Assembly (NCBI GenBank): GCA_038040445.1
Contig: JBBPIG010000020.1
Coordinates: 19,471 to 83,470, forward strand
Length of the DNA: 64,000 nucleotides
Direction: 5' to 3'
DNA from: Acidobacteriota bacterium
GTDB lineage: Bacteria > Acidobacteriota > Blastocatellia > UBA7656
Numbering within the stretch: position 1 is the first letter of the stretch; the number at the start of each line of letters is the position of its first letter. A program made the translations under genes and the position numbers. The notes beneath the pieces are model-generated. The model did not search any database, was not told the origin of the DNA, and saw only the letters and a list, made by a program, of their open reading frames with translations. Positions 12,330 to 59,675 of the stretch are shown here, piece by piece.

Positions 12330-12632
12330 TCATCTAGACCGTCGTTCTTCCTTCACGAGCCGGACCTCCAGTTTGTATCCTAACGCCCTGGCATATCGCC
12401 GGAGCGTGGCGATCGATGGAGAATGCTTTGGTGCGGCGGATTCCAGGCGGGCGATCGCCGACTGCGTTGTACCGACGCGCGCGGCGACTTCCGCCTGCGA
12501 AAGGCCCGATTCGGCCCTTGCCTTGAGTACCTCATCGAGGAAAGCGAATTCCTCGGCGAGATCGTCGTACGCCTTCTTCACTTTCGGGCGCGCGAAGGCG
12601 CGCGCCTTGAACTGCTTTAGAGTGCTAGTCAT
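12330..12632 (-). CDS. XRE-family antitoxin
   Basis: 100 residues with a central helix-turn-helix (GLSQAEVAARVGTTQSAIARLE) and the usual antitoxin ending IATLRRYARALGYKLEVRLV. Such proteins repress their own operon and neutralise a HigB/RelE-type toxin. Its start overlaps the end of a 49-codon frame matching only the N-terminal half of such a toxin (12625-12774), so the antitoxin is intact but its toxin is not. It may persist as an anti-addiction gene or simply as a relic. Confidence 0.85.
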   Translation of the reverse strand: MTSTLKQFKARAFARPKVKKAYDDLAEEFAFLDEVLKARAESGLSQAEVAARVGTTQSAIARLESAAPKHSPSIATLRRYARALGYKLEVRLVKEERRSR

Positions 12633-12931: not shown

Positions 12932-13227
12932 ATGGATGAGAAACTACTGACACTTACCGATCAATTCTCTCCCGCATTGGTGCAAGCGGCAGCGATCTGC
13001 TCCGGACTTGGCGACAAGACCGCGCGTTCGAGCTATGCAGAAAAGCTCTCGCCGTACGGGATGACAGGCTGCTTTGGATTAAGGTCGATCCGAGATTCGA
13101 TAATCTCCGCGCGGATGAGCGCTACGAGGGACTTCTACGTCGTATGAACCTTCCGAAAGAGGCGAGGTCGCTTCGCCCGCCTGCCCTTATGTCAATTTCG
13201 CCCTCCCTCGACGAGAGTTGTCTATGA
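12932..13227 (+). pseudogene. Frameshifted C-terminal remnant of a TPR-domain protein
   Basis: Frame one reads ALVQAAAICSGLGDK, the end of a tetratricopeptide helix pair. After about 13018 homology continues one base later as RAFELCRKALAVRDDRLLW, IKVDPRFDNLRADERYEG and LLRRMNLP, to about 13161. This is the familiar tail of soil-bacterial TPR proteins (winged-helix regulators or Ser/Thr kinases with TPRs). A single frame change therefore splits the remnant, and no upstream body is present. The frame runs on to a TGA at 13225 and touches the next gene. Confidence 0.6.
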
Positions 13228-13932
13228 AGTGACTTTACCTGTTTCGCGGGTCAGCGACGCGAATATCTTGAGGACAATATCGGCAAACCAACATTGGCGC
13301 TGATAGAACTCGAACGCGAATAGCACCGTTGCAGCAGCAGTCCCGATCAGAGCAGACCACTTAACTCCACAGGTTGATATCAGGGCATTGGCTGTAAACG
13401 TGGGATGAACGAAGATCGACAGGAGCGACAAAAGGAAGAGAACAAAACAATCCAAAGCATTCATGCGAGCCATTTTTACCCGCGCGTGCCGCTCCAATAA
13501 GTCATTGGCGATCGAGGGATGGTTTATCTTTATCCAATATATCAAGGTCCAGTAGTTGCCGCGGCGTTTCTCAGAAAACTCCTCCAATAAGGCGAATTCT
13601 TTGAGCAGTCCCTGATAATCAAAGAAGAAATCCCGAGCAGTTCTTGGCTGAAGAGTTCTTACAACAAAGCTCACTGGCTTTCGGATAGCGTGATAGGACG
13701 CAACGCTTATGAACTCGCTGTATACATATACGGCGCTTAGAACGGATGGCACAATAGCCAGCTGTCCCGCCAACTGCAACGATTTCCAACCGGCCACGAG
13801 CGCAGAGAGATCGAGGAATAAGATTGAAGCCAGGGAGAAGAACAAGATACCCGTCGATAGGTAGGCAAAGACATTATATAGAGAATCCGGAACAAATCTC
13901 GTGGAGGCTTCCGGCGAGGTCGGAACGACCAT
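13222..13932 (-). CDS. Multi-pass membrane protein of unknown function, last gene of the NIS-like pair
   Basis: About 236 residues. The ATG at 13932 follows AAGGAGG by eight bases; an in-frame GTG at 13941 lies partly inside that ribosome site and is less likely. Two hydrophobic segments near the N-terminus (about 21-48 and 58-80) and two near the C-terminus (about 162-182 and 190-210) flank a cytosolic-looking basic/aromatic middle (PRTARDFFFDYQG, KRRGNYWTLIYW). No known family is recognised. It begins 31 bases after the NIS-synthetase-like gene and is probably cotranscribed. Membrane proteins at the end of nucleotide-signalling operons can be effectors, but that is speculation here. Confidence 0.7.
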   Translation of the reverse strand: MVVPTSPEASTRFVPDSLYNVFAYLSTGILFFSLASILFLDLSALVAGWKSLQLAGQLAIVPSVLSAVYVYSEFISVASYHAIRKPVSFVVRTLQPRTARDFFFDYQGLLKEFALLEEFSEKRRGNYWTLIYWIKINHPSIANDLLERHARVKMARMNALDCFVLFLLSLLSIFVHPTFTANALISTCGVKWSALIGTAAATVLFAFEFYQRQCWFADIVLKIFASLTRETGKVTS

Positions 13933-13963
13933 GGCTCTCACCTCCTTAGGGTCCTTAGCGAAG

Positions 13964-15226
13964 TCAACTGAATCTGAACTTCGGATTTTCTAACTCTACG
14001 TAGGGTCTCTCACGCGTGAGTAGGATTCTATCATGAATAAACCAACTGTCCCTGGGATAAAAATGGCCACTATCTCGGCCGAGTGAAAACTCCCGGAAAA
14101 AATACTTGATTTCTTCGCGCAACGTGGTGGCACGCAGCCGAAAGGTCCGTGCGATAACCGCCACCAATTCCTCAAAAATATACTCCCCAAGCTTGAAGTC
14201 ATAGCTGAAGCTGTGGCGGATAAAGTAGTCTCGCTCGTTCGAGGCGCGATCAATACACTTATAGGGTTCCGATTTGAATTGGCATTGAAGACCCAATGCT
14301 CCCCGGATTGTGAGATCCTTTTCCAACCCCTGCAAGTCCCGCATCACAACACCCTTGAACTGGTACTGGTCGTCAATGGCCAGCAGAAGATTCTGTGCAT
14401 TGAATTCGGGAATTAGACCGAGATCAAATACAAGAAAGCAGTAACCTCGAAGCAGCGGCTCAATGAGGCCGCGTCTAAGTGTCTCCCAGGGATGTCGATA
14501 GTCGCCTAGCAACTGAACGAGCAGCAGTGGATCACGCTCGCTCAGAGTGTCTTGCGAGAATAGCGAGAAGAAAGGGATCAGAAACGATTCTCCAAGAAAT
14601 GGGAGCGGTTTGGTCGTCCTAAAGATGCAACCTACTTCTTCGGTTCCTTGCCTGGCCGCGCAGGTTTTCACGAGTGCGAATGGCTCCGGGAGAAATGCAA
14701 AGCCTGAGGGAGCAGAGTCGCGGCTAAAGCAGATTACGAGTTCCTCGGAAATCTCCGTGCCCGCCACAGTTTTCATGATCGGCAGCTTGCGATCAACTCG
14801 GCCTAATATCCCATCGTAGTGGAGCTTAAGATAGAGCGGAGGTTGATGACCGAGGCAATATACAGTTCTCCCGTTAGCAGTAGGAACGACAGCCACGGTA
14901 TCCAAAACGCGCGTCGGCTCAAACTCGTAGAGATTCAACTCGGCGACCAGTTTTCTTTGCATATCGGGGTGCAAGGGGAATAGAACAGACTGAGAGCCGC
15001 GGAGAAACGTACTGGCTATGTCCTTAGACGCTTCACCGAATATCAATACCTCATCCTGCGAGAATTCATACAGAGGTAACTGAAAAGTGGCAACGCCGCC
15101 AATCGGTGAATACATGGGCGATGTTGAGAATGCCTGTGAGAATCCGCTCGGCGATCCCTTATTAACGTATCGCTCCATATGCAAGAGCGAGGCTATGGGG
15201 TCGTTGCGTATTGTAGACAGGAGCAA
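13964..15226 (-). CDS. NIS-synthetase-like protein (IucA/IucC fold), divergent
   Basis: About 420 residues from a TTG start with GGAGG six bases upstream. Several blocks follow the IucA/IucC pattern in order: FPLHPDMQRKL (cf. HPWQ), EPTRVLDTVAVV (cf. the S/T-R-T block), PPLYLKLHYDGILGRVDRKL, HPWETL, and EFNAQNLLLAI followed by VMRDLQG (cf. E-x-H-x-QN and RD). These enzymes adenylate a carboxylate and join it to an amine or hydroxylamine in siderophore synthesis. Here the usual histidine of the E-x-H-x-QN motif is asparagine, the protein is about 150 residues shorter than IucA/C, and no siderophore genes are near. Activity and substrate are uncertain. Confidence 0.6.
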   Translation of the reverse strand: MLLSTIRNDPIASLLHMERYVNKGSPSGFSQAFSTSPMYSPIGGVATFQLPLYEFSQDEVLIFGEASKDIASTFLRGSQSVLFPLHPDMQRKLVAELNLYEFEPTRVLDTVAVVPTANGRTVYCLGHQPPLYLKLHYDGILGRVDRKLPIMKTVAGTEISEELVICFSRDSAPSGFAFLPEPFALVKTCAARQGTEEVGCIFRTTKPLPFLGESFLIPFFSLFSQDTLSERDPLLLVQLLGDYRHPWETLRRGLIEPLLRGYCFLVFDLGLIPEFNAQNLLLAIDDQYQFKGVVMRDLQGLEKDLTIRGALGLQCQFKSEPYKCIDRASNERDYFIRHSFSYDFKLGEYIFEELVAVIARTFRLRATTLREEIKYFFREFSLGRDSGHFYPRDSWFIHDRILLTRERPYVELENPKFRFS

Positions 15227-15443
15227 GGCAAGCCTCCTAATTGCGACGAGTAGGGTCAGAGATTGGGTTCAGGCTTGCAAATAGCAATTCGGGAATCGCA
15301 TCCCCAGTTCAACTCGCGTAGGCATTACTACGCAAATATCGAGCAGGTAAATTGCAATTTGCGCACCTGACTCATGTGGTCCCCGGACCCCCGCCCGTTT
15401 ATGACCCCCGGTGTTCGCTTAATTGCTCTGTGCTGTTCTTTGG
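15227..15443 (-). promoter_or_regulatory. Spacer between alarmone-synthetase and NIS-like genes, with a perfect 12-bp palindrome
   Basis: 217 bases separate two gene groups on the same strand. It contains the perfect palindrome AAATTGCAATTT (15349-15360) and locally AT-rich sequence, so it may hold a promoter or operator for the downstream NIS-like and membrane genes. No gene or clear terminator was found. Confidence 0.3.
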
Positions 15444-16151
15444 TCAGGAACTGCCAGATTTCGCCGATCGAAAGATTGAGTCGACGAGCCGACTACAACT
15501 GGATGTGACGCGCGCTAAGACCTTTATTTGCTCCCGGCACGAAGGGACAGGTGATTCGTGAGGATAGTTCATTGAGTGATCAACCTCTCCCCAAAGTTCT
15601 TCGGCGAGTGTTCTTACTTGAATCTCACAAGTAGCCTTTGTGCTGCTGTTTGATTCAACCACGTAGTGCACGCTAGTGTATAATGTCGGACTCTTAACCG
15701 GCCGAATGCCAACACCTCGAAAGAACTCGCGGGTCTCATCATCCCAAGTGCGTGCCTTGGGTTCCTCAAACAGGGGAAACTTATACTCGTCGAAAACCGC
15801 GCGAAGTTCGCGATCAATCGAAATGATCTGTTCCGTGTGAAGGTGAAGGATTCGGAAACCGACGAGATCAGTGATCCGATATAGCAGATTCTTTTCCGAG
15901 ATTGTAAACGGTCGCTTCTTCAGTTTCGCATCTCGCAGTTGGCGGAGAAGCTTGTCTTCAAGGTGAGCAGGATCCTTGAGTCGTCCCTTCGTTGAATGTA
16001 CCTGCGCCATCAACTCCTGGGAGCCGAGAATCGCATCACTGAGTTGCTTAAGCATGACTTCGAGAAAGCTTCGATTCTTGACGTAGTGAGCCACCAGACC
16101 GCTGATAAGCTTCCGATCCGCTTTGGTGATTGTAATCCCGACCTTTGGCAT
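15444..16151 (-). CDS. RelA/SpoT-domain protein, small alarmone-synthetase-like
   Basis: 235 residues dominated by a RelA/SpoT nucleotidyltransferase domain: STKGRLKDPAHLEDKLLRQ, then ITDLVGFRILHL, YTSVHYVVE, and the key EIQVRTLAEELWGEVDH. The Asp of the TDLVG motif and the Glu of EIQVRT needed for pyrophosphate transfer are present, so synthetase activity is plausible. There is no HD hydrolase, TGS or ACT domain. Small stand-alone synthetases make (p)ppGpp or, as toxSAS enzymes, other toxic products or tRNA modification. It starts three bases after the ParA gene, so the two are cotranscribed. Linkage to ParA suggests an accessory defence or plasmid-type role (inference). Confidence 0.85.
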   Translation of the reverse strand: MPKVGITITKADRKLISGLVAHYVKNRSFLEVMLKQLSDAILGSQELMAQVHSTKGRLKDPAHLEDKLLRQLRDAKLKKRPFTISEKNLLYRITDLVGFRILHLHTEQIISIDRELRAVFDEYKFPLFEEPKARTWDDETREFFRGVGIRPVKSPTLYTSVHYVVESNSSTKATCEIQVRTLAEELWGEVDHSMNYPHESPVPSCREQIKVLARVTSSCSRLVDSIFRSAKSGSS

Positions 16152-16154
16152 TTG

Positions 16155-17162
16155 TTATTGGCCCGCGATTCGCGAAATTATTTTTTGAGCAAATTGCCGG
16201 AACGCAACAGCAGCCTCATCCTTTAGGTACTGCGTGCCTCCTTCAACGTCGTTCATCGCAAGTCCTTGTTGCTGAGCCAGGTTGGCTAGCGTCGAAAAAT
16301 CCTTAATCTGTCCTAATTTGAACTGGCTGGGTGATCCCGGGGCAAGGTCTTCATCAATCTCCTTGAGGACCTTTGCGACATCGCTATAGCTATGACGATC
16401 TAACACCCGCGCGTATTCCTTATAGCCACTTGAAATGTCTCCACCATACATTCGAAATCGTTGCAAGACATAGCCAAGGTAAACTGGCCGTCCGCCCAAT
16501 TGCGGGACATCCTTGGGTGCCAACTGGGAGATAATCTCCCAATCTTTAATCCAATTGGCGATCGAATGTCCTAAGGTCTTAAGTGCTCGCGTCGAAAAAT
16601 AGTCGCATGCGCCAGGTACAATGAAGTAATCACAATCCATGAGAATCGCTCTATTAAGCGGCCCAATATTAGGTCCAACATCGTAGAGTACGAAATCGGC
16701 ACTCAAGATGTCTGCGCAACCGTCTACAAAAGTCGACAGCGCCGTCGTTTCGACAAAACCTCGGATCTTTCTTTGAAGGCAGTCAATCCAAGACTGCTGG
16801 AGGTCAAGTTCGTATTCTGAGAGTCGAATATCCCCCGGTAGAAGGTAGATGCCCTCCGATCGCTCGTAGGGCTTGATGAGTTTCGGTGCTTTTCCTTCTT
16901 CAATAACCGGACGCAGAGCCGACCAAATTGTCTGTCCGCTGTTGCCTTCCGACTCATCAAGCCACTTGTCAACAACATCTGCCTCAACCAGGTATGAGGT
17001 TAGATTGCATTGCGGGTCTGAGTCGACCAAGAGTACAGTCTTGCCCAGATCCGCTAAAGCAAAGGCAAGATTGACCGTCAACGTAGTCTTTCCAACCCCC
17101 CCTTTATGATTGAAGAGCGTTAGTCGGAATGATTTTCTTCGAGAGTGCCTGTTGGCCGTCAT
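16155..17162 (-). CDS. ParA/MinD-family ATPase
   Basis: 335 residues with a deviant Walker A (HKGGVGKTTLTVNLA), LLVDSDPQCNLTSYL, and the Walker B region FVLYDVGPNIGPLNR. ParA ATPases position plasmids, chromosomes or protein cargo by ATP-dependent dimerisation on DNA. This one is accessory: it overlaps the upstream winged-helix-like gene by four bases (ATGA) and precedes the RelA/SpoT-domain gene by three, with no ParB and no replication gene. The long insertions (GKAPKLIKPYERSEG, KDVPQLGGRPVYLG) fit the ParA group found alone in genomic islands. Its role with the alarmone synthetase is not established. Confidence 0.9.
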   Translation of the reverse strand: MTANRHSRRKSFRLTLFNHKGGVGKTTLTVNLAFALADLGKTVLLVDSDPQCNLTSYLVEADVVDKWLDESEGNSGQTIWSALRPVIEEGKAPKLIKPYERSEGIYLLPGDIRLSEYELDLQQSWIDCLQRKIRGFVETTALSTFVDGCADILSADFVLYDVGPNIGPLNRAILMDCDYFIVPGACDYFSTRALKTLGHSIANWIKDWEIISQLAPKDVPQLGGRPVYLGYVLQRFRMYGGDISSGYKEYARVLDRHSYSDVAKVLKEIDEDLAPGSPSQFKLGQIKDFSTLANLAQQQGLAMNDVEGGTQYLKDEAAVAFRQFAQKIISRIAGQ

Positions 17163-17719
17163 GACGAGACGCTTCCCTTTCGGGCAATTTTTTGTTTCTT
17201 GCTGCTACGTCTCGGCCGAAGTGTGCGGATCGCTTCCCACGCCGCTGCTCTGTCCGGCAAGAGCTCAACGAATTTCTCCCCGGCGGCAGTAATCTGTTTG
17301 TTTCCTTTCGTCGCTGGTACCAAGAGGCCACGGCTCCTTGCGTTATCTACTGCCACCGCCGCGTTCGAGAATTTTGGTTGTGCCGCTTCCGTATTAAGGG
17401 TGCTGATATCAACCGTCTTAAAATGTGGAGCGTTCCGATAATGTGTGAGGTAGTACGCAAGACAAGTAGCTCGCTCTACGTCGGTCGTCGGCTCCTTATC
17501 TCGCAAAAACTCCTTCGGCGACAAAGACCGATCACGTGAGAAATCTTGCTCTGAGACGGTTCGCGAGGGGCGTAAGGTGTCTGCATCGCGCGGTGTAGCC
17601 CCATGTTGAGGTTGTAGTCCGAGAAACGTTTGTACTGATTGAAGCACCCGTCTCTGGGCATCTGGTTCAAGTTGCTTAAGGGCTCCGACTATCGTCGATA
17701 GCACGTCAAAGTCGTCCAC
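17159..17719 (-). CDS. Winged-helix-like protein, first gene of the ParA/alarmone-synthetase operon
   Basis: 186 residues from a GTG with GGAGG six bases upstream. The N-terminal 60 residues are a helical segment (LSTIVGALKQLEPDAQRRVLQSV) and a linker. The C-terminal 110 residues (DVERATCLAYYLTHYRN, FKTVDISTLNTEAA, FSNAAVAVDNARSRGLLV, KQITAAGEKFVELLPDR) look like a compact winged-helix fold, ending in a basic tail. No named family is claimed. Position at the head of the operon and the basic tail suggest DNA binding, perhaps as a ParB-like partner or regulator for ParA (inference). Confidence 0.75.
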   Translation of the reverse strand: MDDFDVLSTIVGALKQLEPDAQRRVLQSVQTFLGLQPQHGATPRDADTLRPSRTVSEQDFSRDRSLSPKEFLRDKEPTTDVERATCLAYYLTHYRNAPHFKTVDISTLNTEAAQPKFSNAAVAVDNARSRGLLVPATKGNKQITAAGEKFVELLPDRAAAWEAIRTLRPRRSSKKQKIARKGSVSS

Positions 17720-18276: not shown

Positions 18277-18489
18277 TCACCTCATTGTAGCTCGAAGCTT
18301 GCGTTGAACTCGTGCCGGGAGCTCGATGATCTCAAATCCTTTGGCGCTGTAGAGGTAGTCTTCGCCGGATTCATCAACGATCCGTATGTACCCCTCGGGG
18401 TCATTGGCTTCCGGCCGAAGCACCTGGTATACCTTGACGTGAAAGAGGAATCGAGGGTCAGGCGTGCGAATTGCAATTCTCACGCGCAT
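18277..18489 (-). CDS. Small conserved hypothetical protein (about 70 residues)
   Basis: The frame from ATG 18489 reads MRVRIAIRTPDPRFLFHVKVYQVL, then GYIRIVDESGEDYLYSAKGFEIIEL and a basic end. Similar 65-80-residue proteins with a KxYxVLPD and YIRVIDESGEDYLYP pattern are common beside antitoxin-type genes in soil bacteria. It looks like a compact beta-rich (SH3-like) fold. No strong ribosome site is visible. It lies downstream of a frameshifted XRE gene in the frame that the shift opens into, so read-through fusion is conceivable but a separate start is more likely. Confidence 0.55.
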   Translation of the reverse strand: MRVRIAIRTPDPRFLFHVKVYQVLRPEANDPEGYIRIVDESGEDYLYSAKGFEIIELPARVQRKLRATMR

Positions 18490-18566
18490 AAACCGAAAAC
18501 CGCGAAGGCCGACTTCGGATGATCCACCCAATAGATGCCCTGCCGCCGTGCGGCGAGTGAGTAATC

Positions 18567-18849
18567 TCAACCCATGATTTCTACTCTCAAATTCTTGCCC
18601 AAGGCTTTGGCGTACTTTTGGATGGATAGTCGACAAACGTATGTCTTCGGCGTGATTCTCTATTCTCGAAATTGCCGACCTCTTAGTTCTCAATCTCCGT
18701 GCAACGTCATCTTGAGTCATCCCGGCTTTCTCGCTCGCTTGCCTGAGCAGAACCCCGACTTTGAAATTGGAATAGCCAACCTCGAAGCCTTCTGCGAATT
18801 CAGGGTCCAGCCGCTTACGTTTCTTAACGTATCTTTCAAGATCGCTCAT
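18567..18849 (-). pseudogene. XRE-family antitoxin with a frameshift
   Basis: The frame from ATG 18849 reads MSDLERYVKKRKRLDPEF, then an intact helix-turn-helix (GMTQDDVARRLRTKRSAISRIE) and HAEDIRLST. Near 18622-18630 the family consensus moves one base to another frame, where IQKYAKALGKNLRVEIMG and a TGA at 18567 follow. That is the normal end of these antitoxins, so a one-base indel is the likely cause. The DNA-binding part could still be made as a longer fusion read-through. No toxin gene is adjacent. Confidence 0.65.
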
Positions 18850-18902
18850 TGATCCCTGCTCTGTTGTAGTCCGCGACATTGAGCTCCGCGCTTTGGGTTG
18901 CG

Positions 18903-19142
18903 TTAGGCGATCAGCAGCAGCGTGCGAGCCGCGCCTGACGGCGCCCGACGGCCCTGCTCCCAATCCTGAAGAGTGCGAACCGATACCCCGAGCAATGTAG
19001 CGAAGCGCTCTTGCGAAAGCCCGGTCTTTTCGCGAATGCTTGCGACACTGGGAAGGTTCACCACGCGTCCGTGCTGACCGCTCCTAATCTCTCGCAGGCC
19101 TTGCAGGATCTCGCGTCCGATGTCTCGCTTTGCGTTAGCCAT
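18903..19142 (-). CDS. XRE/HigA2-like antitoxin
   Basis: 79 residues from ATG 19142 (AAGGAG seven bases upstream). The pattern IGREILQGLREIRSG, LPSVASIREKTGLSQERFATLLGVSVRTLQDWEQGRR and PSGAARTLLLIA is the small DNA-binding antitoxin family partnered with RelE/HigB2-type toxins. It autoregulates its operon in known cases. Its start overlaps the last codons of a frame that matches only the end of such a toxin (19135-19212); the rest of the toxin has been replaced by palindromic repeats. Confidence 0.8.
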   Translation of the reverse strand: MANAKRDIGREILQGLREIRSGQHGRVVNLPSVASIREKTGLSQERFATLLGVSVRTLQDWEQGRRAPSGAARTLLLIA

Positions 19143-19212
19143 TCTCAATCTCCTTCCGGATTCTTCGAAGGACCTGCGCTGAAATGTTTTTGATGACGTT
19201 CTTCGGATACAT
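19135..19212 (-). pseudogene. Last codons of a RelE/HigB2-type toxin
   Basis: The frame reads YPKNVIKNISAQVLRRIRKE and then IENG, ending at a TAA at 19135-19137 inside the antitoxin start. This is the standard C-terminal tail of RelE/HigB2 toxins (a YPKNxxxxLSxxE-type motif). Upstream of about 19212 the homology stops and palindromic repeats begin, so at least three quarters of the toxin is lost. Confidence 0.55.
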
Positions 19213-19217
19213 TCCGC

Positions 19218-19398
19218 TTCAACTCCGTAGGAGTGTCCTGTCTATAGAAACCGCGCTGCCGAGATTCCGCGTCACTCCGTAGGAGTGTCCTGTCTATAGA
19301 AGATACGCGTTTCGATCAGATAGGAGACTCCTACGGAGTCAAACCGGAATCTGGCGTGGGCGTTTCTACAGACAGGACACTGCTACGGAGTTGAAACG
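19218..19398. repeat. Palindromic repeat cluster (ACTCC-gta-GGAGT core with TCTATAG tail)
   Basis: Two direct copies have the core ACTCCGTAGGAGT at 19222 and 19274, followed by GTCCTGTCTATAGAA. A core-only copy (GACTCCTACGGAGTC) lies at 19326-19340 and an inverted copy with tail at 19361-19398. The first three cores are spaced 52 bp apart. This fills most of 19213-19409, between the toxin tail and the LigD polymerase gene. Confidence 0.85.
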
Positions 19399-19409
19399 CC
19401 GTCGCATTT

Positions 19410-20288
19410 TCACCCTGTTGCATAAATTCGACGCAACTTCTCCATCGGACGTCGCAGCGAGCGCTTGCGCCTGAGCATGTCTGACCACAGGTCGCCGACT
19501 TCGGCGATGCGGCTGGCCATCGTCCGCAGCGTGAACGTCCGTGGGCCGACCTCGCCGCGTTCGAGCTCCTCCCACATGCATGGCGCGGACACGGGCGCGC
19601 CAGCCTTCGCGCGCACGGCGTAGGTCGCGGCGAAAGTCGCGCTGTAGCCATTGCGTCCGGTGTCGATGAGGATGCGCCTGCCACGGTCGGCCTTGCTGAA
19701 CTCAAGTGTGAGGTTCCGCGGATCGCGCTTGATAAGAATCGAAGCAACCGTGTGAGCGAATCTCCCCACCTCGCCAAAGCCGGCCTTGCCGTCGAGCGGG
19801 ACGACTATGTGGAACCCCTTCGAGCCTGATGTCTTCACCCAGGTTGGCAAGCCCAACTCATCGAGAAGATCCCGAAGCCCGAGCGCTGCGGCGCGCAATA
19901 CATCAGGTTCATCAACCGACGGGTCGAGGTCAAAGACGCAGATATCTGGCTGGTAAAGGTTCGGCGCGCGAGACGTCCACACGTGAGGTGTGATGCTGTT
20001 CTGGTTGGCGAGCCAGAGCAGCGATCGCGTATCGCGGACGACTGGATGATGCACCGTCCCGCCCTTCTTCGGAACCTCGACGCGCTTGAGCCATTCGGGG
20101 AAACCCCTCGAAACATCTTTCTGCATAAAACCCTTCTCGCCAATTCCGGCCGGGTACCGCTCCATCGTGACCGGACGTGAGCGAATGTGCGGCAGCATGA
20201 CGGGCGCGATGGCTTCGTAGTAGGACGCGAGCTCGCCCTTGGTGATCCCGTCATCCGGAAACAGCACCTTCTCGGGATGGGTTATCAA
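19410..20288 (-). CDS. LigD-type DNA polymerase (archaeo-eukaryotic primase domain)
   Basis: About 292 residues from a TTG at 20288 that overlaps the ligase stop (TTGA), with GAGGGAG five bases upstream. Hallmarks are THPEKVLFP, YPAGIGEKGFMQKD, the catalytic acidic pair in VFDLDPS, KTSGSKGFHIVVPL, and RGRRILIDTGRNGYSATFAA. The domain adds NTPs/dNTPs at broken DNA ends in Ku-dependent end joining. In most bacteria it is fused to the ligase; here the two are separate, translationally coupled genes. No Ku gene is in the window. A second LigD-type polymerase lies at 58163-59509. Confidence 0.9.
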   Translation of the reverse strand: MITHPEKVLFPDDGITKGELASYYEAIAPVMLPHIRSRPVTMERYPAGIGEKGFMQKDVSRGFPEWLKRVEVPKKGGTVHHPVVRDTRSLLWLANQNSITPHVWTSRAPNLYQPDICVFDLDPSVDEPDVLRAAALGLRDLLDELGLPTWVKTSGSKGFHIVVPLDGKAGFGEVGRFAHTVASILIKRDPRNLTLEFSKADRGRRILIDTGRNGYSATFAATYAVRAKAGAPVSAPCMWEELERGEVGPRTFTLRTMASRIAEVGDLWSDMLRRKRSLRRPMEKLRRIYATG

Positions 20289-21151
20289 GACGTCTCCCTC
20301 ACGATCTCGCGTGCCGGCTTGTCGTAGCGGACTCCCAGCAGCCGCGGATGGCGGAGCTTGCCGTGCACCGTCCATTCGATGAAGGCGACCTGGACGACCA
20401 CCTCGGGGCGCACCCAATGCGCGCGGACGCGCGGCAGCCCGACGGACTTAGTAAACGGCGGCTTCGCAATCTCGAGCGCATTCAGCCTCGCGCGGAGGTC
20501 CAGCAGCAACTTCGTGTCGAAACCGGTTCCGATCTTCCCAGCAAAGACGAAGTGGTCACCCTCGAAGTAGCCGATCAACAGCGCACCCAGACCGACGCGC
20601 CGGCCTTGCGGATCGGTGAAGCCGCCGACGACTAGCTCCTGCGTAGCTTCACACTTCATCTTGAGCCAATGCTTCGAGCGGCGATGCTCATACTGCGAGT
20701 TGCGCCGTTTGGCAATGACGCCTTCCCAGCCTTCGTTGCAGGCTCGCTCCCAAGGCTTTTCATCCGTGAGTGACTCAACGCTGGACAGTGGCGAGTGGAG
20801 CGGCAACTCACTCAACAGCGCGCGACGCGCGTCGAGGGGCAACGACGTGACATCGCGGCCCTCAAGCCACATGACGTCGAACACGTGGTAGGTGACCTCT
20901 CCCTTGCCCCATGTGACTTCCCCGTCGAGGACCACGTCGTGCATCGGCAACTTCGCGATCGCCTCGACGACGAAAGGAATGTTCTGCGGCAACCGGTTTC
21001 GCGAGAACAGTCGGACTTGCGGTCCCTTTTTGAACGCGAGCAAGCGAATGCCGTCGAACTTTCGCTCGAAGATCCACTCCGGGCCGGTGAACCGTTCCTG
21101 TGTGAGGGTCGCCGCCATCGGCTCGACCCATTCGGGAAAGGAGATCGTCAT
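20285..21151 (-). CDS. ATP-dependent DNA ligase (LigD ligase module)
   Basis: About 288 residues from ATG 21151 with GAAGGA eight bases upstream. The nucleotidyl-transfer lysine is Lys31 in ERKFDG; further motifs are VRLFSRN, LDGEV, EGWEGVIAKRRNSQY and HWLKMK. The C-terminal OB domain includes GKIGTGFD and RPEVVVQVAFIEWT, ending KPAREIVRE. It seals nicks or double-strand breaks after polymerase processing. The in-frame sequence upstream of 21151 is made by palindromic repeats and is probably not translated. It overlaps the polymerase gene by four bases. Confidence 0.9.
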   Translation of the reverse strand: MTISFPEWVEPMAATLTQERFTGPEWIFERKFDGIRLLAFKKGPQVRLFSRNRLPQNIPFVVEAIAKLPMHDVVLDGEVTWGKGEVTYHVFDVMWLEGRDVTSLPLDARRALLSELPLHSPLSSVESLTDEKPWERACNEGWEGVIAKRRNSQYEHRRSKHWLKMKCEATQELVVGGFTDPQGRRVGLGALLIGYFEGDHFVFAGKIGTGFDTKLLLDLRARLNALEIAKPPFTKSVGLPRVRAHWVRPEVVVQVAFIEWTVHGKLRHPRLLGVRYDKPAREIVRETS

Positions 21152-21215
21152 GTGAACCATCCTTCGGGGCGACGAGTGAACGATGCAGACAACCATACCC
21201 GGTGCTGCCAGTCTT

Positions 21216-21447
21216 CGGAATCCCACCAACGCAGTTGGTGGATCGTTCATACACTACCTACAAAATGCTGAGGCAAAAAGGCTAGGTATGAAAACATCCA
21301 CCAACTGCGTTGGTGGGATTCGGCCGCACCTTGTCCGTGTAGGCTGAATATGAACGATCCACCAACTGCGTTGGTGGGATTCGGGCGCCGCGCTTTGTCC
21401 GTGTAGGCTGAACATGAACAATCCACCAACTGCGTTGGTGGGATTCC
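21216..21447. repeat. Four palindromic repeats (CCACCAACTGCGTTGGTGG) at 61-64 bp spacing
   Basis: One inverted copy (about 21218-21243) and three direct copies (cores starting 21298, 21359 and 21423) share CCACCAACTGCGTTGGTGG followed by GATTC. The spacers after the second and third cores are also alike (both contain TTGTCCGTGTAGGCTGAA), so these are tandem units of 61-64 bp. This is most of the gene-free stretch 21152-21492. Open frames through it are by-products of the repeat. Confidence 0.85.
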
Positions 21448-21492
21448 GAAATCACGCTGTTCGTCACAATCACGGTGACTGACTACTCGTTA

Positions 21493-37244: not shown

Positions 37245-37667
37245 ATGACAATTCAAAAGCAAGAATTCTATGAAGGCGCGGCACTTCACCAACTGGCTCG
37301 TCGCGGTGGGATTGCCAGTCTTAGATACGAACCACCATTCTTCATTGTGAACGGCGATGTCATAGTTTGCCTCAAGTACAGCACCAAGAACCGCAGTCCT
37401 TGGGCCTTTACCTTTACATCCGATGAACAGGTCTTGTTGCGCAATCGCGCAAAAGGCTCGTCCTTAGTCATCGGTCTGATCTGTGGTGCCGATGGAATAG
37501 CTGCGATTCCTTACAAGTCCTATCGAGAAATCGCAGCGCCGAGGAGAACTGCACTACACGTTTCATGCTACCGACGGCACGGGCAACATTACGCAGTCTC
37601 CGGTCCTGATGGGGAACTTGCTCGAAAAGTCGCTCCATCCTTGTGGCAACGCATTCTTGAGAAGTGA
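37245..37667 (+). CDS. Small protein preceding Z1 ATPase, unknown family
   Basis: 140 residues. The pattern EGAALHQLARRGGI, PPFFIVNGDVIVCLKYSTKNRSPWAFTF (in parts), VLLRNRAKGSSLVIGLICGADGIAAIPYKSY suggests a compact alpha/beta protein; the KYSxKNRSPWxFTF block resembles short proteins seen beside restriction-type operons. I cannot name the domain. Its stop is seven bases before the Z1 start, so the two are one operon. Confidence 0.65.
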   Translation: MTIQKQEFYEGAALHQLARRGGIASLRYEPPFFIVNGDVIVCLKYSTKNRSPWAFTFTSDEQVLLRNRAKGSSLVIGLICGADGIAAIPYKSYREIAAPRRTALHVSCYRRHGQHYAVSGPDGELARKVAPSLWQRILEK

Positions 37668-37674
37668 GGAGTGT

Positions 37675-39621
37675 ATGAATCATCGCGACCAAGTAGTTAA
37701 TCTCTTGATGAAGCAGATTGGCAATCCGGAAGAGGTCGAGGAAATCCGAGTCACCGCCCAGGAAGTGGCAGAGCTATGGGTAAATCCAGTAGGTGGCGGG
37801 AGCGAGGAGACTAACGGCCTGATTTATGGCCTGATCCAGAGTGGCAAGACTGGTGTTCTGACCGTCACTGGGGCCATTGCCGCCGATGAGGGATATCGGA
37901 CCGTTCTCATTCTGACATCCGACAACGATCCTCTTTACGAACAAACCTTGGGCCGAGCCCGAGAAGCTTTTCCGGGTATGGATATTTTGGGCAAGGCAGA
38001 CATCAAAGATTGGGGGTCCTTCATTCAGCGAATCAAGGTAGGAGCCTGCGCTATCATCATGACAAAGAACGCAGGTCACTTGGGTACCCTGATTGAAAAC
38101 TTAAAGAAGGGGAATGTGGGGGAGCTATCCTGTCTCATAATCGACGACGAAGCGGACCAAGCCAGCCTAAACACGCGCACAAAGAAAGCTGATGGAACGA
38201 GGAGCGCCATCAACCAGAAGATTCTAGAGCTGAGAAGCTTCTTCGAGAAAAACACCTACCTGCAGGTTACCGCCACGCCGCAAGCACTCTTCCTCCAACC
38301 GACAGGTCATGAGTTTCGTCCCAAGTTCACTGTGCTTAGTCATCCGGGTGCCGGGTATGTTGGGGGAGAAGAATTCTTTGGCGAGAACTCCACCCTTGTA
38401 CGTGAATTTCCTCTCGATGATATCGGGGCCTTGACCTCATCGTCACAGCCCAGCCCAACAATGAATATTCCAATGTCTCTGCTCAAGGCACTTGACACAT
38501 TCATGATTGGCGCGACATACAAACGCCTTAAAGATGTCGACCAAAATTGTGCCTTCCTCTGTCATGTCAGCACAAGGAAAGATGATCACCGCTATATCGA
38601 AGCCTTGCTTCGCAAGTACAAGATTGATCTTGCTTCTGGCACCAAGGCTGGGACGCCAGCGCTACTTAGCCGCCTAAAATCTGCCTATGATGATCTGTTG
38701 ACGACCCATCCAGAGCTGAGCGACCCGGGCTTCGACGAATTGGTGAAGGCGATCATCTTCTATTCACCTGGAATCGCTGTCAAGCTCGTCAATGGTGAAA
38801 CCGATGAAGATGTCGCCGTACATTCTCCGTATAACCTTTTCGTTGGCGGCAATAAGCTTGGCAGAGGTGTAACGATCAAGAACCTACTAGTCAGCTACTA
38901 TGGGCGCAACCCCAAGAAGCCTCAAGCTGACACCGTTCTTCAACACGCGCGGATGTACGGCTATCGCAGGGCAGACATCGGCTTGTTGCGACTGTTCTTA
39001 CCAAATGAGTTGCACACGGTTTTCAAAGCCATTCATAAGATGGAACGCGGCCTGCGAGATATCATTGCTCAAGCGCCAAGTGAAGAGTTTCGTGGCGTGT
39101 ATATCGAGAGCTCATTAAACGCCACTAGACCCAACGTGCTGGTTCCCGGAGCCATCGGTGTATATACAGGAGGTGGGTCGTATAACCCCGCCCAAGTGAT
39201 ACGCGATGCTACATCCGAAGTTGCAACCGGACGCCTCAACGAGATGCTAGCGGACGTACCAAACAAGCAATACAAACGGATCCCTTTGGAAGAACTCCGG
39301 CAGATGATAGAACTCACAAAGCCAGACGAGAGCCAATCAGAGCGGGTATGGGACCCAGTTGCTGTGGCGGAAACGATTTCACAGTTCGCGACGCTGCGAG
39401 ACCAAGAGGAGGGATATGTCTATGTGGATCGAGGTCGCGAACTTAGAGAAAATCGTCGCGAGACCCGAGGAGTTCTATCAGGCGGTGAGGCGGCCAACGT
39501 ACCTGACGACCGACTCACTTTGTTTCTCCTAAGGACCAAGGCGGAGAGAGGAATGAGCGAGGCTTGGTGGCCTCAGATTCGGTTCCCTAAAGGAAGATAC
39601 GCATTTGCTTTCGCGCTTTGA
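37675..39621 (+). CDS. Z1-domain ATPase (superfamily-2-like, defence-associated)
   Basis: About 648 residues from ATG 37675 preceded by GAGGAG. A P-loop-like GLIQSGKTGVLTVTGAIA is followed by VLILTSDNDPL, the Walker B CLIIDDEADQASL, and VTATPQALFLQP, the helicase-like motif order of Z1 proteins. The later block NLFVGGNKLGRGVTIKNLLVSYYGR, with HARMYGYR, is the characteristic Z1 domain. Such proteins occur in defence islands with Dcm, Vsr and GHKL ATPases; their biochemical role is not well defined. Here it is convergent with exactly such genes at 39744-44593. Confidence 0.88.
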   Translation: MNHRDQVVNLLMKQIGNPEEVEEIRVTAQEVAELWVNPVGGGSEETNGLIYGLIQSGKTGVLTVTGAIAADEGYRTVLILTSDNDPLYEQTLGRAREAFPGMDILGKADIKDWGSFIQRIKVGACAIIMTKNAGHLGTLIENLKKGNVGELSCLIIDDEADQASLNTRTKKADGTRSAINQKILELRSFFEKNTYLQVTATPQALFLQPTGHEFRPKFTVLSHPGAGYVGGEEFFGENSTLVREFPLDDIGALTSSSQPSPTMNIPMSLLKALDTFMIGATYKRLKDVDQNCAFLCHVSTRKDDHRYIEALLRKYKIDLASGTKAGTPALLSRLKSAYDDLLTTHPELSDPGFDELVKAIIFYSPGIAVKLVNGETDEDVAVHSPYNLFVGGNKLGRGVTIKNLLVSYYGRNPKKPQADTVLQHARMYGYRRADIGLLRLFLPNELHTVFKAIHKMERGLRDIIAQAPSEEFRGVYIESSLNATRPNVLVPGAIGVYTGGGSYNPAQVIRDATSEVATGRLNEMLADVPNKQYKRIPLEELRQMIELTKPDESQSERVWDPVAVAETISQFATLRDQEEGYVYVDRGRELRENRRETRGVLSGGEAANVPDDRLTLFLLRTKAERGMSEAWWPQIRFPKGRYAFAFAL

Positions 39622-39743
39622 GGCCTTAGCCGGGCCGGGAACAACGGTAATCCGCACGTGTAATGCGACAACGTGCGCCTAATGCCTACGAGCGGCTTCC
39701 CACGGTGCTCAGCTTCAATTAGTTCGATTTTTTGAAATGGCGT

Positions 39744-40529
39744 CTACAGTTTTAGAGTCCGCCCATTTACTCTCGCAGAACCATCAAGCTCCCCTGTATT
39801 GATATCCGCTGTTCCCAAGTGCTCACCGTGGGCGGAGAATACCTCGATATGAGCTGATCCTCCCGGGTGACCTTCGTCGACATAGTAGAGTCTGCAGGTT
39901 TCCATTTCCTCAAAAACGCGCCTGAAGCCCCGGCGTTCAATCTTGCTCGTGGCCCGGAATCGATCCGGCAATTTTAGTAAAATAGTCTGAAAGTCTTTCG
40001 GAGCGACGGCGGACGCAGGATCGTAATATCCTCTCTGTTCGGTGACCCACCTTCTGACCAAAGATAGGGAGGATAGGCATCGCAACTCAATCTGTTGCCG
40101 GGTTCTGTCTTTTGACACGGAAATCTGATATCGATCTTGGAACGCGGAATCCTCTGCGCTGAGAAGAGAAGCTTCCAATCCGTTATCTAGAATTTTTCGC
40201 TCCGCAGCTTCACAAATAGAGTGATCTTGTAGTGCCAGAACCGGTTCGTGGCAGGTGTACTGGTCGATATCATTAGAGAGCCTTTCGGGTCTCCAGCATC
40301 TGTAGTATCGCTCGCCAAAAACAAGCTCTCTAATTAGCGCTCGGACGTCCTTTGGTAGACTTAGAGCGTTAAATTCTCTTGCGAAGTCAGCAGTGAGGAA
40401 GAAATGGCTGTCTTTAAAAAGAATCGTCCCCTCTCTCGCTAGTTCCTGAGCGGCAAGGAGGAAGAAGTTTAAAGACGCTTCTGAAGCCCCGTGATCCCCT
40501 AGACTATGCTCATTAAGGAAACCTATCAT
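39744..40529 (-). CDS. Unknown protein, last gene of the Dcm-Vsr-DUF262-AAA run
   Basis: 261 residues starting one base after the AAA ATPase stop, so translationally coupled. Readable segments are NFFLLAAQELAREGTILF, DVRALIRELVFGERYYRCWRP, a basic middle (SKIERRGFRRVFEEME) and a beta-rich end (GGSAHIEVFSAHGEHLGTADINTG). I recognise no catalytic motif. Coupling to an AAA ATPase of the overcoming-lysogenisation-like type suggests it is a partner or effector (inference). Codon use resembles its operon neighbours. Confidence 0.7.
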   Translation of the reverse strand: MIGFLNEHSLGDHGASEASLNFFLLAAQELAREGTILFKDSHFFLTADFAREFNALSLPKDVRALIRELVFGERYYRCWRPERLSNDIDQYTCHEPVLALQDHSICEAAERKILDNGLEASLLSAEDSAFQDRYQISVSKDRTRQQIELRCLSSLSLVRRWVTEQRGYYDPASAVAPKDFQTILLKLPDRFRATSKIERRGFRRVFEEMETCRLYYVDEGHPGGSAHIEVFSAHGEHLGTADINTGELDGSARVNGRTLKL

Positions 40530-40530
40530 G

Positions 40531-41661
40531 CTATCCGAGAATAACGCTCAAATCGTTGTCGAGCTGATCGAAAAAGCCATCGGGCCAAGTGGCGATATCC
40601 CCTGATTCCGAAACTGCTATCTGGGTTACTGAAGGCTCGAAGGCGTCCAAGGGTTTAGCGAAAAAGAGAAAGCGGACCTTATCAGGAGTTAAGATTGTTC
40701 GTTTGACCATCCGCCGAATGCCATTCAGGACATGCTCGCTGTGAGTTTCGACAAATACCTGGGTTCCTCCAGCTGCAACGCGTGCCAAGAACTCCCCAAT
40801 CATCGACTGCGCTTTGGGATGAAGATGTGCTTCAGGATTCTCAACGATTAAGACTGTATCGCTCGTCGCAGCCAAGCCTGCCACTATTACTCCAAGTACA
40901 AAAGACAAGCCAAATCCGGTATTGGTCGGGCGAACAAATAGGCTTTGACCGGTTTGCTGTCTTTGGAGTGCTAGTCCTAACCTAACTTGGTCGGCCCGAC
41001 TATAAATCTCTGACTCTCCATCGAAGCCCGGAAAGAGTCGCGCCATCCAAAGTGCCCATTGGTACTGTATCGTTGGGTATTCCTTTTCATCTGAGCTTTC
41101 CAGCACGAGTATGCTGTTGGTAATCTCTGTTTCTCTAAGCTCAGAGGCAATGATGTAAGGAGCGTTCTCACCGTTCTTGCCAACACGTAACGGATGCCCT
41201 TCATCAGGAGATATCTGAAATACCTTTCGGGGACCAACCCGCTCCGCATGCAGATAGTTGAAGGGTTCTAAAAAAAGCCCCGAAGTCAGCGCTCGTTCCT
41301 CGATTAAAGTATCGCTACGAAGGGGCAAAGAATAATGCGTTCGGTACTTTTCGAATTCGCCACTTTGCAAATGGAGCACTTGGTCTTGTTCAGAACCTCT
41401 CAGTATGATTTCTATGGAATCCCCGTCCGGATCGGCGCAATAGACCTCTCCACTGGTGCCCAAGTCCACCAAAGAGCCGTTTAGTTTGAGCGTTCCGCGG
41501 GACAGACTGCCTGATTCCCACGATTGTCGGACCGCCAGGAGGCTCTGAATGACGGTGGACTTTCCTGCGCCATTCATGCCCGCAAGCACGTTGATCATCC
41601 CGAGGTCCATCGTCCGAGACCTAAAACATTTAAAATTAGTAAGGGTGATCGAGGCGATCAT
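40531..41661 (-). CDS. AAA/RecF-like ATPase (AAA_21 with DUF3696-like end)
   Basis: 376 residues. Walker A AGMNGAGKSTVIQSLL follows SITLTNFKCFRSR. The ABC-type region reads FGLSFVLGVIVAGLAA, with Walker B TVLIVENPEAHLHPKAQ and the H-loop VETHSEHVLNGI. The C-terminus (RFLFFAKPL, SVTQIAVSESGDIATWPDGFFDQ) is the DUF3696 ending. There is no TOPRIM nuclease domain, so any nuclease must be a partner. It overlaps the DUF262 gene by four bases and is followed at once by the 261-residue unknown protein. Confidence 0.9.
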   Translation of the reverse strand: MIASITLTNFKCFRSRTMDLGMINVLAGMNGAGKSTVIQSLLAVRQSWESGSLSRGTLKLNGSLVDLGTSGEVYCADPDGDSIEIILRGSEQDQVLHLQSGEFEKYRTHYSLPLRSDTLIEERALTSGLFLEPFNYLHAERVGPRKVFQISPDEGHPLRVGKNGENAPYIIASELRETEITNSILVLESSDEKEYPTIQYQWALWMARLFPGFDGESEIYSRADQVRLGLALQRQQTGQSLFVRPTNTGFGLSFVLGVIVAGLAATSDTVLIVENPEAHLHPKAQSMIGEFLARVAAGGTQVFVETHSEHVLNGIRRMVKRTILTPDKVRFLFFAKPLDAFEPSVTQIAVSESGDIATWPDGFFDQLDNDLSVILG

Positions 41662-43130
41662 TCTAATACTTTCTCAACTGCACTATGGGCGCGCTGGAAA
41701 CGTGTCTTCACCGAATTCACGCTGCCTGTGCCTGCCGATAACGACCTAACGTAGTCGGGATCCGAAAACATCTGGAAGAGGCTTGAAAGGATCTGGTCTT
41801 TCCGTTGGCGCAAGAGTTTCAAGTCGTAGCCCTGAAGAACATTTGACCATGACTCAAAGAGTGCTTTATTGATCGGCGCTCTTCTATCGGTTTCCAGGTT
41901 GAACTTGCGGAAGGCCAGTCGACCAAAGATCTCAAAAGCTCGATTCATTGCCTCGCGAAAGCTTAGGTTGAGGAGCATCACCTCAGAGTTGGACATACAG
42001 TTTATGTCCGCCATCGTAGCTGAAAGGAAGGTATTTAGATCAGATTTCAAGTATTCGCTGTAGGGATGAATATGGAATGCTGCGTATCGCAGAACGCACT
42101 CACGAGCATCCATCCGCGTATCGCTTACGCCGCCTCCAGTTGCCTCCAGGAAATCCTCAGATTCGGCCAATGTTCTTAACAGCCTAGTAGCCTCCCCTTG
42201 AAAGAGTGCGTGACGAATTTCCTGAGCGGTGAGCACGAGTCCACCAGTATTGATTCTATAAAAAATTGTAAACTTTACCTCTGGCGGCGTCTCCGGGCGG
42301 ATAATGAAGAGCGTCACCTGAGTGTCTTCCAGATCGCGTCGCATCCCTCTCGGTAGTTCATCAAAGGTTTTCCCTTCGGCGGACTTGAGGTATTCAAGCC
42401 GCTCAAGTCGAAAGTTCCTTTCGGTTACAAAGTCCTTGAGAGTTGAGAGTCGCTGCAATCCATCAACTACCACCCAGCGATTTGCATCTACACCATCGAA
42501 GTAAAATGCGGGTAGAGGAATGCGTAAGAGCGCAGATTCAATGAGCCGCGATCTTCGAACCGGATCCCACACTAGATTGCGCTGGAACTCAGGATCTAGA
42601 ATGATTTCGTTGAGGGATATCTTCCGCAGCACTTGAAAAACCGTCATTGGTTCGCGATCAACTTTGATTTTGGTCGGATCGAATGGCTCTGTGATTGATT
42701 CGTCGCCTTCGGAGTTTTCGCTTTCCACTCCCAGTGTCGCTAGTTCGATGCCACCATCCGCACAGATTTCCAGGAAGACATCGTCGTCAATTCTGCGCAC
42801 AGCATTCTGCGCATTGTAGAAGGGAGCCAACTCGCGTGGCTTTCCATTTTCAGCGCGGCCAGGAACGGTTATGGTGAAGGGACGATAGTTCAGAATTTCA
42901 GCAAAGAACTGATCAGGATTGTCCGGGTCGGCAATCACGGCTCCTACTTCACCGTAACCAAAGTATTCACCTTCGCCGGACTTTTTCGGTTCGTAATAGA
43001 CGAATTCGATCGCTGGCAGCGTTAGGAAGTTGAAATATTTCCTTGGAAAATGGTAGCGAGTGCCGATCTGATCAGCATAAGCAGAAGCTTTACGATATTG
43101 GGCTAAGACGAGCTTGGTTTTCTGTTGCAT
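41658..43130 (-). CDS. DUF262 protein with N-terminal PUA/EVE-like domain
   Basis: 490 residues. The C-terminal two thirds are DUF262 (ParB/Srx-like nuclease fold, as in GmrSD): FQVLRKISLNEIILDPEFQR, the signature VVDGLQRLSTLKDFV, and FYRINTGGLVLTAQEIRHALF. The N-terminal 100 residues (ADQIGTRYHFPRKY, FVYYEPKKSGEGEYFGYGEVG, FFAEILNYRPFTITVP) resemble the modified-base-reading PUA/EVE-type modules found on HNH and McrBC-like proteins. A reader joined to DUF262 suggests recognition of modified DNA (inference). The gene starts 31 bases after vsr. Confidence 0.8.
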   Translation of the reverse strand: MQQKTKLVLAQYRKASAYADQIGTRYHFPRKYFNFLTLPAIEFVYYEPKKSGEGEYFGYGEVGAVIADPDNPDQFFAEILNYRPFTITVPGRAENGKPRELAPFYNAQNAVRRIDDDVFLEICADGGIELATLGVESENSEGDESITEPFDPTKIKVDREPMTVFQVLRKISLNEIILDPEFQRNLVWDPVRRSRLIESALLRIPLPAFYFDGVDANRWVVVDGLQRLSTLKDFVTERNFRLERLEYLKSAEGKTFDELPRGMRRDLEDTQVTLFIIRPETPPEVKFTIFYRINTGGLVLTAQEIRHALFQGEATRLLRTLAESEDFLEATGGGVSDTRMDARECVLRYAAFHIHPYSEYLKSDLNTFLSATMADINCMSNSEVMLLNLSFREAMNRAFEIFGRLAFRKFNLETDRRAPINKALFESWSNVLQGYDLKLLRQRKDQILSSLFQMFSDPDYVRSLSAGTGSVNSVKTRFQRAHSAVEKVLE

Positions 43131-43161
43131 TATCTAAAGATAGGATTCTGGAACATCTCTC

Positions 43162-43575
43162 TTAAAGATCATAGTCCAAACAACGCACGACTCTCCGCGT
43201 CACCTTCTTCGGGTCTCTCAATTCATGTTGCCAGACCCTGAGTATTTGCCAGCCTCGACGCTTTAGCTCTCGATTGACAAAGCGGTCTCGATTCCTATTG
43301 CGCGTGAGTTTCTCCCTCCAAAAGGCCGAGTTGGTTGCTGGGATGGTGCCGTGGCTTCGGCACCCATGCCAAAAACAACCATCTACAAAAACGGCCAGTC
43401 GCTGCTTGGGAAAAACAAAATCTGGATTGCCTAAAAGCGCAAAGTGCCTGCGCCACCCGCTGATCCGACGTTCGCGAAAAATATTTAAGAGCCGAACTTC
43501 TGTCGAGAGATTGCCTCGGCTCTTTACGCGAGACATTATCTCTGAGCGTTTTTCTGCATCAAAGACATCGGCCAT
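43162..43575 (-). CDS. vsr: Very-short-patch repair endonuclease Vsr
   Basis: 137 residues. The Vsr landmarks are EIMSRVKSRGNLSTEVRL, GNPDFVFPKQRLAVFVDGCFWHGC (catalytic Asp and zinc-binding region) and NRDRFVNRELKRRGWQILRVW. Vsr nicks at T:G mismatches created by deamination of 5-methylcytosine made by a partner Dcm. It overlaps the dcm end by 17 bases, confirming the partnership. Length is normal. Confidence 0.93.
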   Translation of the reverse strand: MADVFDAEKRSEIMSRVKSRGNLSTEVRLLNIFRERRISGWRRHFALLGNPDFVFPKQRLAVFVDGCFWHGCRSHGTIPATNSAFWREKLTRNRNRDRFVNRELKRRGWQILRVWQHELRDPKKVTRRVVRCLDYDL

Positions 43576-44593: not shown

Positions 44594-44808
44594 GCTCCCG
44601 ATTCTGAAAGCTTTGTCAAGAAGCGTCAAGACGAATTCCGCTAGATGAAATTTGCCCACTGTTTTCAAAGCTTCAGAGACACCAACCCGCTCTTTCTACG
44701 AGGAAGCTTCGACGCTTGAAACGAATCTGTGCCGGCTGGGCTCACCGCGTCTCAAGTAGCTTCGCACTCTCAACCCGCGAGGCGGCCTACAGAACAGGAG
44801 TGCTGGGT

Positions 44809-59509: not shown

Positions 59510-59511
59510 GA

Positions 59512-59638
59512 GTTTCGCGCAAAGACGCAAAGTTCCGCAAAGACGCCAGGCATTCAGCGGAGGCAGCCTTCGGCGCCGAGGTTATTGTCACCTCATTATC
59601 TTGGCGTCTTTGCGGAACTTCGCGTCTTTGCGCGAAAC
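59512..59638. repeat. Long inverted repeat, CGCAAAGACGC family
   Basis: Arms of 37 bases (59512-59548 and 59602-59638; GTTTCGCGCAAAGACGC...) pair with one mismatch around 53 bases. It lies between two convergent genes and may be a bidirectional terminator or the end pair of a small mobile element. Similar sequences are widespread in bacteria (recollection). Confidence 0.85.
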
Positions 59639-59675
59639 ATCTACTCAATCTGGCTCTCTTTCCGAGGTTAGGACA

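Follow-up and report, generated by a model that had tools for sequence, protein, structure and literature searches.

A horizontally spread cassette of a ParA ATPase and a stand-alone alarmone synthetase, probably a phage-defence module of a type not yet described

Background

The toxSAS enzymes are toxic alone and neutralised by a partner, and their product is either (p)ppApp or made on tRNA-CCA. They include CapRel and are anti-phage effectors (PMC9712102). Pairing of an effector with a ParA ATPase also has a precedent, the HEPN (MAE_18760 family)-ParA/Soj dyad, predicted by Anantharaman et al. 2013 (PMC3710099) to be a toxin-antitoxin system with ParA as the antitoxin. Here we describe a locus in which ParA is followed by a stand-alone RelA/SpoT-domain synthetase (RSH). 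It lies in a window of 64,000 nucleotides, by which we mean the whole stretch of DNA analysed.

Results and discussion

Genes belonging to the cassette

Five minus-strand ORFs run through positions 13222-17719 of the window, and all five appear in the ORF list: a winged-helix gene (17719-17159, 186 aa), which is the first of the cassette; a ParA gene (17162-16155, 335 aa) overlapping it by 4 bp; the RSH gene (16151-15444, 235 aa) after a 3-bp gap; an NIS-like gene (15226-13964, 420 aa) after a gap of 217 bp; and the gene of a multi-pass membrane protein (13941-13222). The last gap is 22 bp when counted from the GTG start of the membrane gene, the 31 bp given for it in the original prediction being about the distance to the next in-frame ATG. 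That prediction treated the five as one group; the winged-helix, ParA and RSH genes (17719-15444) cohere, but the NIS-like and membrane genes do not.

The unit is the winged-helix-ParA-RSH cassette (17719-15444), which also exists in a two-gene ParA-RSH form without the winged-helix gene. In the first relative, from another family of the same class, the RSH is 66% identical and belongs to a tight winged-helix-ParA-RSH trio between housekeeping genes, with the NIS and membrane genes absent. A scan of the contigs of 84,980 genomes with the RSH alignment, using RSH peptides only and not ParA as query, returned 75 loci, whose ORFs were compared by Blast with the five window proteins. This gave 30 winged-helix-ParA-RSH loci and 37 ParA-RSH loci, a copy on a Caballeronia plasmid included in the latter. 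Nine loci had no ParA match: three carry other RSH families, three are cut by contig ends, two hold RSH fragments, and the last (L062, a Gracilibacteria contig) has a ParA that was missed by Blast of ORFs and is present by tblastn. ParA lies directly upstream of RSH in 68 of 70 usable loci, both exceptions being broken RSH fragments, and the spacing among related loci is mostly -8 to +9 bp, with 4-bp overlaps usual. The winged-helix gene accompanies the pair in 30 of the about 70 related loci (nearly half). All-against-all comparison of the flanking genes revealed no other conserved companion, and the same comparison of small ORFs revealed none conserved as a third member of the two-gene form. 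Plasmid RSH matches that were inspected, the Caballeronia copy excepted, were rejected as different, longer RSH without ParA.

Homologues of the NIS-like and membrane proteins occur in none of the about 70 related loci. NIS homologues were found on Methylocystis plasmids, in the company of chromate genes and an MFS transporter, and on a short Acidobacteriota contig from which ParA and RSH are absent. The NIS-like protein itself matches IucA_IucC weakly (9.7e-5), at 22.5 bits against a Pfam gathering cut-off of 25 and thus below threshold, and has no relative among solved structures. The membrane protein has no family match. Co-occurrence beyond the source genome therefore applies to the ParA-RSH pair, which recurs widely, and never to the NIS-like and membrane genes, so that the role of linked enzyme and effector originally proposed for these two proteins falls away.

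The window copy of the cassette is chromosomal, with a G+C content of 50.4% against 56.3% for the window, and no recognisable prophage surrounds it. RSH and ParA genes of this kind occur once each in the source genome, its remaining RSH and ParA genes being distant. About 20 kb away lies a defence island recognised by PADLOC (37609-44668), composed of a Z1/Type II helicase-domain protein (37609-39621), NsnC (39744-40529), NsnB (40531-41661), NsnA (41658-43130) and a cytosine DNA methylase (43559-44668). The decayed toxin-antitoxin loci originally reported nearby may correspond to HTH/antitoxin-like ORFs to either side of the gene group (12330-12632, 18277-18963 and 18903-19148, from the ORF list and Pfam), which are perhaps remnants of such loci.

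Three further features of the window were observed. Positions 19211-19398 hold an 81-nt inverted repeat with a 28-nt element that recurs in both orientations, MITE- or REP-like in appearance. At 21250-21470, ORF translations contain a short motif several times (SHQRSWW or NPTNAVGG) in different frames, and a short palindromic DNA repeat is therefore likely. ORF reading also identified two separate pairs of LigD-like polymerase and ATP-dependent ligase genes (bacterial NHEJ), at 19410-21250 and 58163-60764.

The cassette proteins

Both enzymes keep complete active-site motifs, as judged from alignments of 61 relatives. ParA (AAA_31, 9.5e-28 in Pfam) has a KGGVG motif with K25 in over 90% of these, along with D47, D49, D161 and P164, its deviant Walker A and switch motifs being invariant or nearly so. 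Their retention implies an ATP-switched dimer, which is the general behaviour of ParA proteins. In profile comparison ParA matches PDB 3pg5, a solved but uncharacterised protein, over its full length (3.6e-59). It is presumed to be the control protein of the cassette.

The RSH is a stand-alone RelA/SpoT synthetase domain (RelA_SpoT, 9.5e-14 in Pfam), with no hydrolase domain and with its catalytic residues intact. Its alignment has 22 invariant columns, including R57, K59, D95, R100, Y158, H162, E176, Q178, R180 and H192, and profile alignment places the invariant residues on catalytic positions that S. aureus RelP conserves; the catalytic Asp and Glu regions noticed at the outset thus correspond to Asp95 and Glu176, invariant in all 61 relatives. 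The predicted structure (pLDDT 96.1) finds RelP and RelQ as best folds, followed by CapRel (7ztb, E 1e-6) and an exported SAS. The RSH is presumed to be a toxic effector, and production of ppGpp, production of ppApp and pyrophosphorylation of tRNA are not separable by its sequence.

The winged-helix protein, conserved in the 30 three-gene cassettes, was first called by eye, and the call is backed by an AlphaFold2 model (pLDDT 85.7) with an N-terminal helical hairpin (residues 2-33), a MarR-like winged helix (about 80-152) and a basic C-terminal tail. Foldseek matches to MarR-type regulators are weak (best E 0.03), and searches of Pfam, NCBIfam, PADLOC, PHROG and solved structures gave no match or relative. 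We consider the protein a putative DNA-binding regulator or adaptor.

Distribution and coinheritance

The cassette is found sporadically across about 13 phyla; its genes, coupled and inherited together, have spread horizontally. The RSH occurs in 2 of 297 Acidobacteriota genomes, 6 of 399 Pseudomonadota and 1 of 397 Actinomycetota, the last being the seed genome. In the 399 Pseudomonadota the link between ParA and RSH holds both ways: the six matches to the RSH profile comprise one distant, longer RSH (G908) and five full-length ones, one match being the seed genome, and the five matches to the ParA profile at E<=1e-115 are in precisely the five genomes with a full-length RSH, where the two genes are adjacent in each case. 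The next ParAs score 1e-77 or weaker.

Distance matrices of ParA and RSH are correlated overall (Mantel r 0.65) and within the two types (r 0.58 and 0.82), a correlation reached in 0 of 2000 permutations in each case. Near relatives are found in different phyla (Acidobacteriota with Xanthomonadales), which indicates horizontal transfer. One hybrid cassette (L053, 6233-8552) combines a winged-helix gene and ParA of the three-gene type with an RSH of the two-gene type, an apparent effector exchange. ParA or RSH genes that are frameshifted or reduced to fragments, on the Caballeronia plasmid (L005, 6900-7974) and in L038, L055, L077 and L080, suggest that decay is frequent. Most copies are single, chromosomal and placed between unrelated genes. 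A ParA with a stand-alone synthetase, in the absence of partition or replication genes, had been taken to suggest an accessory system, and the pair does recur far beyond the source genome, outside partition and stringent-response loci.

Sister ParA modules

The next tier of Pseudomonadota ParAs is paired with other effector-like genes, often by a 4-bp overlap. Their partners are Schlafen/AlbA_2 proteins with a C-terminal HATPase_c_4 domain (L105-L117, L120, L124), SIR2 proteins of the SIR2_2 family (L121, L122, L127), HEPN proteins of the HEPN_RiboL-PSP family (L123, L125) and, by eye and with no Pfam support, a class III cyclase-like protein (L126). A ParA gene is also followed by a HEPN-type gene in the filamentous Pseudomonas phages Pf1 (L162, 2498-4049) and WX-TY (L163, 2676-4308), the HEPN-type call having Pfam support in WX-TY and being made by eye in Pf1. 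Salmonella phage ST160 (L161, 3956-5062) has a lone relative of these ParAs in a P22-like immunity region, no effector being annotated as its partner.

Such pairs are possibly an effector-swapping family. In the ParA tree the RSH-partnered ParAs form two clades with other partner types between them; one and two origins of RSH use are not separable on this tree, which is unrooted and has some long branches. The chances are about even that ParAs of this clade constitute a general immunity control module with swappable killers (RSH, SIR2, HEPN, Schlafen/AlbA_2), some of these being cargo of unrelated phages. ParA would then respond to a signal from phage or DNA by turning on the effector linked to it.

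Location in prophages

Seven of 5426 complete E. coli genomes carry the two-gene form, as one group of copies that are 99.8-100% identical. One such pair occupies NZ_CP053787.1 1454564-1456347. The three copies inspected lie between the replication endonuclease/DinI and portal genes of a P2-like prophage. This gpA-gpQ interval, home of old and tin, is described by Rousset et al. 2022 (PMC9122126) as a hotspot of tested anti-phage systems. An alignment scan of IMG/VR gave 25 viral contigs with RSH relatives, a few of them near-duplicates, where a scan with a single RSH sequence had given no match. ParA is adjacent in 22 of the 25, one having the three-gene form, and eight contigs with the pair carry it beside P2-type gpA, gpQ or gpP genes. 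The two-gene form thus sits in the anti-phage hotspot of P2 prophages, both in the three of seven E. coli copies inspected and in P2-type contigs.

The neighbourhood of the cassette in related loci, surveyed as 227 proteins (the two nearest on each side) with PADLOC and Pfam and with no control set, included three integrases and a few defence-type matches, namely type I RM, PD-Lambda-1, NsnA and candidate PDC families. Enrichment of defence genes in this uncontrolled survey is low.

Possible function

We read the cassette as a mobile phage-defence module of the abortive-infection or toxin-antitoxin-like kind. Because the anti-phage activity is something we infer, this reading is given a probability of about 0.66. 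It is based on the conserved unit, the two-way link, the correlated trees, the lack of any other conserved neighbour and the sporadic spread; on the P2 hotspot location, the viral contigs and the interchangeable partners of sister ParAs; and on the precedents of the HEPN-ParA/Soj dyad (PMC3710099) and of toxSAS enzymes as anti-phage effectors (PMC9712102). The accessory defence or nucleotide-signalling system of the original prediction is therefore upheld as an accessory module with E. coli copies in an anti-phage hotspot, its activity and product being the inferred part.

In an uninfected cell, an ATP-bound ParA dimer would keep the RSH inactive; where the winged-helix gene is present, its product would act alongside ParA as a DNA-binding adaptor or autoregulator. 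A phage trigger would alter the binding of ParA to nucleotide, DNA or protein, and the RSH would be freed or activated. The RSH could then move pyrophosphate from ATP to GTP/GDP or adenine nucleotides, so that alarmone builds up and ATP/GTP are drained, or it might instead target tRNA 3'-CCA ends; translation and growth would stop and no phage would be produced. The opposite polarity, with ParA as the activator of the RSH, is possible.

Against the defence reading stand the window copy, chromosomal and outside any recognisable prophage, the low enrichment of defence genes in the uncontrolled survey of neighbours and the fact that the P2 hotspot also houses true partition systems. The P2 survey gives about a quarter of P2-like prophages a putative partition system there (PMC9122126), which keeps alive a maintenance or addiction role: ParA would retain the prophage, plasmid or island through partition or as an antitoxin, the RSH would be a post-segregational killer, and any protection from phage would be incidental, if it occurs at all. 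The family membership of ParA agrees with such a role, as do the copies on mobile elements and the several decayed ones, and in three-gene cassettes a centromere-binding adaptor could, in principle, be supplied by the winged-helix protein. The two-gene form, however, has no ParB or centromere-binding gene and no iterated repeats upstream, the E. coli copy showing no more than two imperfect palindromes, each single; a search for operators or centromeres upstream of the winged-helix gene found no shared palindrome or word. As most copies are single in chromosomes between unrelated genes, and as sister ParAs are paired with SIR2 and HEPN effectors, we regard the maintenance role as unlikely.

Growth control is less probable still. 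ParA would here place or time the RSH on the nucleoid, with alarmone made locally according to the state of the DNA and without toxicity. The canonical synthetase residues, all kept, would suit this, as would the housekeeping nature of the closest folds (the SAS RelP and RelQ) and the winged-helix gene that nearly half of the cassettes include. Housekeeping signalling is hard to reconcile, though, with a sporadic and horizontally moving gene set present in roughly 1% of genomes or less, with its prophage hotspot, and with sister modules that swap the partner for NADase-like and RNase-like proteins. Finally, a five-gene system in which a ParA-RSH signal is passed on to the NIS-like enzyme and the membrane protein can be dismissed as a conserved system, since strand, adjacency and similarly low G+C (49.9% and 50.4%, where the window as a whole has 56.3%) are outweighed by the 217-bp gap, the absence of both genes from every related cassette and the NIS homologues found apart from ParA and RSH.

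If the defence reading is right, the defence systems based on alarmone synthetases would gain a widespread and apparently undescribed type. ParA ATPases, whose familiar task is the movement of DNA and cargo, would also be switches of toxic effectors. The compact two-gene copy of E. coli P2-like prophages (about 1.8 kb) and the solved ParA relative 3pg5 make the proposal directly testable.

Comparison with known systems

The ParA-RSH pair is not described as a system by any PADLOC, PHROGs, NCBIfam or Pfam entry. PADLOC-DB (2023) does not list the cassette and gives only partial matches, of the P-loop protein to PDC-M28B and, weakly, of the RSH to PDC-S33. The original statement that no system of this composition is described holds for the open-access papers searched, none of which joins an alarmone synthetase and a ParA as a system; the arrangement as such does have its 2013 precedent.

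The cassette RSH shares its fold and all catalytic residues with the housekeeping RelP and RelQ (YwaC/YjbM), but differs from them in its near-obligate ParA neighbour, its accessory distribution and a WDxE segment peculiar to the family (residues 136-139), which precedes the YTSxHYV motif. As is the case for ParABS/Soj partition, the ATPase is of the deviant Walker A type with the signature lysine and Walker motifs; the two-gene form nevertheless lacks a ParB-type partner and recognisable centromere repeats and is linked to an effector enzyme.

With toxSAS systems such as CapRel the cassette shares a small RelA/SpoT-type pyrophosphokinase (the RSH model matching 7ztb) that is mobile and prophage-borne, with a dedicated partner gene adjacent to it (ParA in the 68 of 70 usable loci). 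That partner is a ParA with or without the winged-helix protein, not an antitoxin of the Panacea, PAD1, pseudo-ZBD or hydrolase type, and the RSH, whose toxicity is presumed, is closer to RelP and RelQ. With the HEPN-ParA/Soj dyad the cassette has in common the two-gene arrangement of ParA and effector. The partner gene is not HEPN, however, and the effector is an alarmone-type synthetase rather than an RNase; a three-gene winged-helix form and a prophage hotspot location are further differences, and the ParA falls in a different clade from the sampled HEPN-partnered ParAs. With toxSAS effectors and the ParA-HEPN dyad already known, ParA-RSH is thus not categorically new; the likeliest reading is a module of phage defence, so far undescribed, that joins an alarmone-type synthetase to a ParA.
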